Source: Mucilaginibacter ginsenosidivorans | GTDB lineage: Bacteria; Bacteroidota; Bacteroidia; Sphingobacteriales; Sphingobacteriaceae | Length of the DNA: 64,000 bases | Reading direction: 5' to 3' | Assembly: GCF_007971025.1 (NCBI RefSeq) | Contig: NZ_CP042436.1 | Coordinates: forward strand, 496,001 to 560,000 | Part shown: piece after piece, positions 15,634 through 17,415 of the stretch | Layout: every line of letters starts with the position of its first letter | How positions within the stretch are numbered: the stretch's first letter is position 1 | Made by a program: the position numbers and the translations under genes | Notes under the pieces: model-generated | Database searches by the model: none | Told to the model about the DNA's origin: nothing | What the model saw: the letters and a program-made list of their open reading frames with translations, nothing else

Positions 15634-15909
15634 CTAATAGATACCATGAAAAAAACCTGATAGGGATACATCAAAATAGTAACAAACCTTTCTTAACGTG
15701 TCCAGCCTGATGTCAACCTTGCCCGATTCGAGTCTTGCTATATTAATATTGGTTTCGCTGTAAAACTTTTCCTGGGTAACCTGGTTCTGCCTTCTCAGGT
15801 TCTTTATCTGCAGCGCGATCTTCTTTTTAAAGGCGTCTTCCGATTTGTTAAGATACTCAAAATCAGTCAGTAACATACTTATAATTCGGTTTATCAGGTT
15901 TATTGACAT
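15634..15909 (-). CDS. XRE-family helix-turn-helix regulator
   Basis: The 91-residue protein is almost entirely an HTH_3/Cro-C1 domain: LQIKNLRRQNQVTQEKF, then SETNINIARLESGKVDI and LDTLRKVCYYFDVSLSGFF. An internal ATG 11 codons in is also possible. It has no effector domain. Its start lies about 90 bases from a divergent promoter (15997-16027) that reads into a candidate small gene, so it may regulate that unit and itself. Confidence 0.85.
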   Translation of the reverse strand: MSINLINRIISMLLTDFEYLNKSEDAFKKKIALQIKNLRRQNQVTQEKFYSETNINIARLESGKVDIRLDTLRKVCYYFDVSLSGFFHGIY

Positions 15910-15996
15910 GCAATCTAATAAATATATCGAGAAAACTAATTTCTACGTTCGTAAAAATTTTAAAGCATTAATTTACAGATTCTGACGTATTCGTCA

Positions 15997-16027
15997 TTGC
16001 CTATAACTCAACATGGCTTTACATTTG
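15997..16027 (+). promoter_or_regulatory. Bacteroidota-type promoter of a small transcription unit
   Basis: TTG at 15997-15999, exactly 20 bases, then TACATTTG at 16020-16027. Transcription would begin near 16033 and end at the strong hairpin-T-tract terminator at 16181-16211, giving an RNA of about 180 bases. Confidence 0.6.
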
Positions 16028-16058
16028 TAATATTATCAACGGCTCTGCATACCAATCT

Positions 16059-16154
16059 GTGAAAAAATATAAGCTTTCATTTACCTATGAAAAACTTTAC
16101 TTGAATTCTCAGACGCCCAAGCTGAGTAAATTTTGTTCTTTGTTTTGGGTTTAA
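16059..16154 (+). CDS. Candidate 31-residue microprotein between an XRE regulator and an acyl-CoA dehydrogenase
   Basis: A GTG-started frame encodes a short basic-aromatic peptide beginning MKKYKLSFTYEKLYLN and ending SKFCSLFWV, with one Cys. It lies 26 bases after the predicted transcription start of a well-formed promoter and ends 27 bases before an intrinsic terminator, so the three parts form a complete small transcription unit. There is no signal peptide and no family I recognise. The RNA could instead be non-coding. The context (divergent XRE regulator) is suggestive only. Confidence 0.4.
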   Translation: MKKYKLSFTYEKLYLNSQTPKLSKFCSLFWV

Positions 16155-16180
16155 TCAATAGTTTAAATTAATTAGGGGAA

Positions 16181-16211
16181 AGAGAACTTTGCATAAAGGT
16201 TCTCTTTTTTT
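16181..16211 (+). terminator. Intrinsic terminator with no annotated upstream gene
   Basis: AGAGAAC (16181-16187) pairs with GTTCTCT (16199-16205), helped by TTT/AAA inside, and is followed directly by T residues to 16211. The only upstream forward-strand unit it can serve is the small one starting near 16033. Confidence 0.8.
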
Positions 16212-16244
16212 ATGTATTGATTTTTTACTATGCATGCATAGCAT

Positions 16245-16252
16245 TAAATTTG
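16245..16252 (+). promoter_or_regulatory. -7 promoter element of the acyl-CoA dehydrogenase gene
   Basis: TAAATTTG lies 23 bases before the ATG at 16276 and after the terminator at 16211, so the dehydrogenase is transcribed separately from the small unit upstream. It follows the palindromic ATGCATGCAT. Confidence 0.5.
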
Positions 16253-16275: not shown

Positions 16276-17415
16276 ATGCATTTCGAATTTTCCGAAGAAC
16301 AGCTAATGATACGCCAGGCGGCGCGCGACTTTGCCCAAACCGAACTGAAACCGGGTGTGATAGAACGCGACGAGCACCAAAAATTCCCTGCCGAACAGGT
16401 AAAAAAAATGGGCGAGCTTGGTTTCCTGGGCATGATGGTGCCACCCGAGTATGGAGGCAGCGGCATGGACGCTATTTCCTACGTACTGGTAATGGAAGAG
16501 CTTTCAAAGATCGATGCCTCAGCCTCGGTGGTTGTTTCGGTGAACAATTCCCTGGTTTGTTACGGTTTGGAAAAATATGGTACAGAGGAGCAAAAAAGAA
16601 AATACCTGGTTGCCCTTGCCAGCGGCGAAAAGATAGGTGCGTTTTGCCTGTCTGAACCAGAGGCCGGCTCAGATGCCACATCTCAGCACACTACCGCAGT
16701 AGATATGGGTGACCATTACTTGCTTAACGGCACCAAAAACTGGATCACCAACGGCGGTACCGCATCCACCTACCTGGTAATAGCGCAAACCGATCCGTCA
16801 AAAAAACATCATGGTATCAATGCGCTGATCGTCGAAAAAGGAATGGAGGGCTTTACCGTCGGCCCCAAGGAAAACAAATTGGGCATACGGGGTTCCGATA
16901 CGCATTCGCTGATGTTTACCGACGTAAAGGTTCCCAAGGAAAACAGGATAGGCGAGGATGGCTTTGGCTTCAAATTCGCCATGAAAACCCTCGAAGGTGG
17001 CCGCATAGGTATTGCCGCGCAGGCGCTGGGTATAGCGTCGGGCGCATACGAACTGGCTCTTGAATATTCCAAACAGCGCAAAGCTTTCGGAAAAACCATT
17101 TCCGACCTGCAGGCAATTCAATTCAAACTGGCCGACATGGCTACGCAAATAGAAGCGGCGCGCTTGCTTTGTTTAAAAGCGGCCTGGCTTAAAGACCATG
17201 GGCAACCTTATGCACAAGCCAGCTCAATGGCCAAGTTGTATGCATCCGAAGTGGCTATGCGAACAACTATTGAAGCCGTGCAGATACATGGCGGCTACGG
17301 TTTTGTGAAGGAATACCACGTGGAGCGTTTAATGCGCGACGCCAAGATAACCCAGATATACGAGGGCACCTCCGAAATTCAACGGATTGTCATTTCGAGA
17401 GAGGTGTTGAAATAA
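16276..17415 (+). CDS. Acyl-CoA dehydrogenase
   Basis: The 379-residue flavoenzyme begins MHFEFSEEQLMIRQAARDFA, the usual start of short-chain acyl-CoA dehydrogenases; an upstream extension in frame overlaps the terminator and is rejected. It has the signatures GAFCLSEPEAGSDA and WITNGG (FAD/substrate), YSKQRKAFGK, and the C-terminal IHGGYGFVKEYHVERLMRDA with the catalytic Glu in YEGTSEIQ. It oxidises acyl-CoA to enoyl-CoA in fatty-acid or branched-chain amino-acid breakdown, passing electrons to ETF. The chain-length preference is not resolved. Confidence 0.93.
   Translation: MHFEFSEEQLMIRQAARDFAQTELKPGVIERDEHQKFPAEQVKKMGELGFLGMMVPPEYGGSGMDAISYVLVMEELSKIDASASVVVSVNNSLVCYGLEKYGTEEQKRKYLVALASGEKIGAFCLSEPEAGSDATSQHTTAVDMGDHYLLNGTKNWITNGGTASTYLVIAQTDPSKKHHGINALIVEKGMEGFTVGPKENKLGIRGSDTHSLMFTDVKVPKENRIGEDGFGFKFAMKTLEGGRIGIAAQALGIASGAYELALEYSKQRKAFGKTISDLQAIQFKLADMATQIEAARLLCLKAAWLKDHGQPYAQASSMAKLYASEVAMRTTIEAVQIHGGYGFVKEYHVERLMRDAKITQIYEGTSEIQRIVISREVLK

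Follow-up and report, generated by a model that had tools for sequence, protein, structure and literature searches.

Genus-wide conservation of a predicted small RNA

Within the window, which denotes the whole stretch of 64,000 nucleotides analyzed here (positions 496001-560000 of a 5.35-Mb single-contig Mucilaginibacter genome), we identified a conserved unit on the forward strand that is predicted to produce a non-coding RNA of approximately 180 nt (16033-16211), apparently a bacterial regulatory small RNA belonging to an undescribed RNA family. After the search with Rfam release 15, no match was obtained at the gathering score, and none of this kind was found at E<=10 in the region. When the segment 15910-16275 was searched against relatives, strong matches were detected in nearly every member of the genus and in no genome outside it. 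The 20-mer core is present in 77 of the 81 Mucilaginibacter genomes (62 of the 63 of good quality). A 32-mer search of 201 genomes of the family, tolerating up to 3 mismatches, had hits in 35 genomes; each of these is a Mucilaginibacter genome with an exact copy at the main locus, and none of the 24 other genera covered gave a match. The covariance model gave E-values between 1e-27 and 1e-35 within the genus and 0.03 at best outside. An exact 30-mer was detected in 114 stretches of a collection of 84,980 species, the matches listed being all titled either Mucilaginibacter or metagenome-assembled genome of Bacteroidetes or Sphingobacteriaceae. The main RNA is usually present in one copy per genome.

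The conservation profile, computed from 111 sequences with less than 95% similarity to one another, shows hardly any change across some 40 nt (16135-16181); since these sequences were chosen by the exact core, the unbiased evidence for invariance is the 20-mer census together with the 32-mer mismatch search. As a reference, the 47-nt RNA block is 89-100% identical between species pairs for which identity at four-fold degenerate positions in the neighbouring acyl-CoA dehydrogenase gene is only 34-43%. As judged from this comparison, the RNA core has hardly changed over a span in which neutral sites became saturated.

Candidate homologues in other genera were rejected: the covariance model gave matches of 25-39 bits there, and the best cases inspected resembled AT-rich DNA plus a terminator. 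A phage origin was likewise discarded after the exact core was not found in viral contigs. One element of another genus of the family (L250, 1986-2105) carries GATTAAGCAATAGTTTAAAGTAA followed by a terminator, just past the end of an oppositely oriented acyl-CoA dehydrogenase gene; it is possibly a remote trace of the linker described below, and we do not accept it as a homologue.

Promoter, terminator and coding capacity

The earlier note had proposed a promoter, a GTG-started frame and a terminator at this locus, and our sequence check located all three in that order. The promoter consists of the -33 element TTG (15997-15999), as read from the sequence, and, after a spacing of 20 nt, the -7 element TACATTTG (16020-16027), in agreement with the published consensus for Bacteroidetes, TTTG/TAnnTTTG (PMC6847099). 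The -7 column fits TAnnTTTG in 41 of the 111 non-redundant homologues, and its final TTG is kept in 99 of the 111. The transcript is predicted to start 5 nt past the -7 element and to end at an intrinsic terminator (16179-16211), an inverted repeat followed by a T run. Because the -7 column is kept, the T run is nearly invariant and the terminator stem carries compensatory changes, promoter and terminator as read from the alignments exceed chance. The proposal that an RNA is made thus gains backing, by comparison, from the conservation of promoter, body and terminator.

The frame of 31 codons between GTG and TAA (16059-16154, forward strand) is open, with a start at plausible spacing, and a few relatives retain an open frame ending in FCSLFWV, as would be expected of a small protein gene. 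The same stop is reached after at least 25 open codons in just 24 of the 129 homologues, however, and the peptides read from the aligned start scatter between 2 and 33 residues; stops and indels of 1-2 nt within the conserved region disrupt the frame in most relatives. The stretch encoding FCSLFWV is conserved as nucleotides, and synonymous changes are absent from it. The proposed translation thus finds no support, because stops and indels destroy the frame in relatives while the nucleotides persist; by all comparative indications the frame is a chance occurrence and the RNA is not translated. We consider a small protein gene hardly credible, and for the genus as a whole it can be dismissed. 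The other reading offered in the earlier note, a regulatory RNA, is the correct one.

Independence of the RNA from neighbouring genes

The RNA is flanked by genes for an M13 peptidase and an 80-residue XRE-type protein, both on the reverse strand, and by the acyl-CoA dehydrogenase gene on the forward strand (ATG at 16276). The terminator lies about 65 nt upstream of this ATG on the same strand, the dehydrogenase gene follows the RNA in most species, and a pseudoknot with a terminator recalls riboswitch anatomy, so that the RNA could be read as a cis-acting leader, an attenuator or riboswitch with the terminator as its switch. Against this reading, a conserved palindrome CTATGCATGCATAG and then TAAATTTG intervene between the terminator and the gene (16227-16252). 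Moreover, although M13-(XRE)-RNA-dehydrogenase is the usual order, the RNA persists in loci that lack either XRE or the dehydrogenase, or both, and the next gene is convergent in L065, L073 and L081 as well as at the five dinB-linked copies described below. Attenuation or ligand control of the dehydrogenase was rejected on these differing or convergent downstream genes in several species and paralogues, and we regard a cis-acting leader as very improbable. Since the RNA is retained at loci without the downstream gene or with a convergent gene in its place, comparison of the loci identifies it as an independent unit with a predicted promoter and terminator of its own, not the leader of a neighbouring gene.

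The palindrome and TAAATTTG directly upstream of the dehydrogenase gene are kept genus-wide where this gene is present, and are lost or altered in the inspected loci without it. They probably represent the operator and promoter of the dehydrogenase gene.

The XRE-type regulator and its putative operator

The divergent gene (15634-15876, reverse strand) encodes an XRE-type regulator of 80 residues with similarity to HTH_19 (E=8e-6), although its Pfam HTH matches fall just under the curated cut-offs. The start, MLLTDFEYL, is conserved, and most homologues with a comparable start begin at the ATG at 15876 and not at 15909. The distance of about 90 bases given in the earlier note has to be revised accordingly, as the start at 15876 gives 121 bases to the -33 TTG instead of 88.

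Directly upstream of this TTG, we found the dyad TGACGTATTCGTCA (15983-15996), of the pattern TGACG-N4-CGTCA, which is proposed as the XRE operator and for which the exact copy is unique in the genome. With up to 3 mismatches the dyad, usually immediately 5' of the -33 element, is present in 30 of the 53 loci carrying XRE and in 1 of the 66 loci without it (Fisher 1e-12, loci taken as independent of phylogeny), the sole exception being a dinB-linked copy. Among the 40 loci listed, 37 could be scored, and in every one of these the dyad and the -7 element are separated by exactly 22 nt; the distance from dyad to core, in contrast, varies (sd 6). Between 12 and 14 XRE-carrying loci are devoid of a clear dyad despite similar XRE proteins; there is a clade in which XRE is present and the dyad is degenerate. 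A wide XRE regulon is not indicated in this genome, since dyad copies with up to 2 mismatches (45) hardly exceed the control (34).

The regulation of the RNA by the XRE protein, as put forward in the earlier note, thus receives comparative backing: because the dyad is nearly absent where XRE is missing and its spacing to the -7 element is fixed, it is well supported that XRE acts, as an activator or repressor, on the predicted RNA promoter through the dyad in XRE-carrying species. The dyad might instead serve XRE autoregulation only, leaving the RNA outside XRE control, and a divergent, adjacent regulator gene is the arrangement typical of autoregulation. This explanation is rather unlikely in view of the constant spacing to the -7 element of the RNA, the contact of the dyad with the -33 element, and the dyad-like sites located upstream of the dinB-linked RNAs, far from XRE.

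Structure of the RNA

Upstream of the invariant block, the RNA carries a 5'-domain block CATTTACCTATGAAAAA (16078-16094; consensus CATCTACCTATGAAAAA), recognized in the conservation profile and confined to the main-locus RNA. This is followed by stem 1, formed by CUCAG (16108-16112) and CUGAG (16122-16126). The stem-1 loop GCCCAAG (16115-16121) can pair with UUUUGGGU at about 16144-16150, the nearly invariant 3' arm UUUGGGU, so as to generate an H-type pseudoknot with a loop 1 of 2 nt and a loop 3 of about 17 nt. Between the two arms of this stem 2 lies the invariant loop motif GUUCUUU (16135-16141), which the conservation profile reveals and the dinB-linked paralogues retain. The pseudoknot leads into the invariant linker UUAAUCAAUAGUUUAAAUUAAUUAGGGGAAA (16151-16181), the proposed antisense region, which is exact in the main-locus copies of all 35 genomes detected by the 32-mer search.

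In the copies at the main locus, pairing of the helices is preserved in 98-99% of cells, and that of stem 2 in 99.5%; position 16115 shows only pair-preserving G/A changes among the 111 sequences. Once the five paralogues were added, two-sided compensatory changes were observed in 4 of the 5 stem-1 pairs and in 4 terminator pairs (8 in total), a covariation score reached by none of the 500 shuffles. In the alignment including paralogues, 5 of the 23 sequences are without one stem-2 pair, and the few changes are mostly pair-preserving. Comparison thus demonstrates a covarying stem 1 (16108-16126) in the predicted RNA. The near-invariance of stem 2 is compatible with the pseudoknot GCCCAAG/UUUUGGGU without proving it, and we consider this pseudoknot probable.

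Paralogues and related elements

In five Mucilaginibacter genomes (L253, L254, L255, L257 and L260), the gene dinB for DNA polymerase IV is immediately followed by a second RNA, in each case facing a convergent gene. These RNAs share the stem, the loop, GUUCUUU, the linker and the terminator with the main RNA and are without the 5' domain. Dyad-like sites precede them, with promoters less clear than at the main locus, and all five genomes also carry XRE at the main locus. Three weak sub-threshold matches of L20_leader to the dinB-linked copies were judged to be due to chance, as they scored 27-31 bits (E 0.03-0.36) where the gathering score is 58.7.

In the genome under study, three further places share only the end of the linker and the terminator. 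Two of them flank a katG-like catalase-peroxidase gene on both sides, each ending in AGTTTAAATTAATTAGGGGAAA plus terminator and devoid of the pseudoknot (L251 4989 and 2233, about 3.075 and 3.072 Mb in the genome, the second with small differences). At L252 3264 (genome position 2793762), GATTTAAATTAATTAGGGG plus terminator adjoins a gene for a chemotaxis-type (CheB/CheR-like) protein of 976 residues.

Search for antisense targets

In 16 genomes of the genus, we identified 52 places outside the RNA family with up to 3 mismatches to the linker pattern AGTTTAAATTAATTAGGGG. At translation starts these near-matches are antisense in 19 cases and sense in 4 (p=0.003, a value overstated by kinship between species), while the reversed pattern used as control gave 5 antisense and 11 sense cases. 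The difference between real and control patterns gave p=0.016 for ATG plus GTG starts and p=0.12 for ATG starts only, both overstated because the species are not independent. Antisense near-matches just upstream of start codons were also included among the weak matches of the search in relatives. The strongest site, in L492, shows complementarity at 28 out of 32 positions and lies 10 nt before the ATG of an adhesin-like gene (-39 kcal/mol). These near-matches suggest, tentatively, that the RNA acts in trans as an antisense sRNA.

For the own genome, where the tests covered the window and a set of stretches totalling about 1.6 Mb, neither the bulk duplex-energy test nor the seed-word test on 1434 translation starts gave an antisense excess over controls. 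The site at target L472/L473, followed through the genus, is kept only in two close relatives. In view of the negative bulk tests and this non-conserved target, the antisense step is to be taken as a lead. Hfq was not found in 13 genomes including the present one, in a search for which the control worked.

Model of action and its alternatives

The reading we favour, to which we give about even confidence, is a stand-alone genus-core sRNA of about 180 nt under XRE control, with a linker that pairs with mRNA starts and a pseudoknot as its cap. XRE would act on the RNA promoter through the dyad beside the -33 element, and the single-stranded linker would pair with sites just upstream of the start codons of a few mRNAs that vary between species, such as those for surface proteins and two-component regulators. 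Bacteroidota translate independently of Shine-Dalgarno sequences (PMC6847099), which makes the region before AUG the natural place for blocking, and it is the Shine-Dalgarno-independent initiation that the pairing would block. The pseudoknot may cap the linker on its 5' side, by stabilizing it or by binding a protein.

The unbroken invariance of 30-40 nt exceeds the length of a typical seed, and this feature argues against the pairing model. A structured RNA that binds a protein or ligand, such as a sponge, a 6S-like RNA acting on polymerase or ribosome, or a scaffold, would account for it, as contact with a protein or rRNA would keep the linker invariant and the antisense sites would be coincidental. 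The conservation of about 40 nt, more than pairing with changing mRNAs requires, the single copy and near-universal presence in the genus, and the negative bulk antisense tests all fit this explanation; the antisense excess at translation starts and the absence of any Rfam match, 6S included, speak against it. We consider it a serious possibility of lower standing than the antisense sRNA. A more speculative proposal, which we hold to be unlikely, is a new RNA class in which the pseudoknot and the linker of about 40 nt would form a single functional unit directed at a conserved cellular partner, be it the ribosome, RNA polymerase or an RRM protein, with an XRE switch tied to DNA damage through the dinB-linked paralogue.

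To our knowledge, few sRNAs of environmental Bacteroidota have been described, and no sRNA paper on Mucilaginibacter was found in a literature search conducted largely outside subscription journals. The present locus offers a near-universal RNA of a large genus, accompanied by what may be its own dedicated regulator and operator; its hosts, with no Hfq detected and with Shine-Dalgarno-independent translation, provide a tractable case for sRNA action under such conditions.

Comparison with known RNAs

As an intergenic RNA of Bacteroidetes the present RNA resembles 6S-Flavo (RF01685), but the Rfam models of 6S RNA and 6S-Flavo gave no match at the gathering score, nor at E<=10 in the region. Pedo-repair RNA (RF01715; PMC2864571) of Pedobacter is likewise a candidate structured RNA of the same bacterial family, and its name suggests repair genes, while one Mucilaginibacter paralogue sits behind dinB; the RF01715 model, however, matched neither the region (E<=10) nor the paralogue loci (E<=1). 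With the H-type pseudoknot riboswitches of preQ1-I type the RNA shares a short stem 1, a pseudoknot formed via its loop and a terminator on the 3' side, and differs in that it regulates no gene in cis and that an invariant linker parts the pseudoknot from the terminator.

A precedent for the proposed mode of action is provided by GibS and FopS of Bacteroides thetaiotaomicron, sRNAs that exert repression through contacts close to the start codon (PMC11697453). Like the present RNA, they are intergenic RNAs of Bacteroidota that have a promoter of the phylum type, end in an intrinsic terminator, contain a conserved stretch that is single-stranded, and have paralogues; binding close to start codons would be a further common trait, putative in Mucilaginibacter. 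FopS is said to be deposited in Rfam (PMC11697453) and may be among the models of release 15 used here, which gave no match. It consists of a 5' single-stranded stretch plus terminator and is present in 14 copies (PMC11697453). This layout, a 5' seed directly followed by the terminator with no other structure, is not that of the Mucilaginibacter RNA, in which a 5' domain and the covarying stem 1 with its probable pseudoknot precede an internal linker, and which is usually present in one copy and equipped with a putative dedicated XRE operator.
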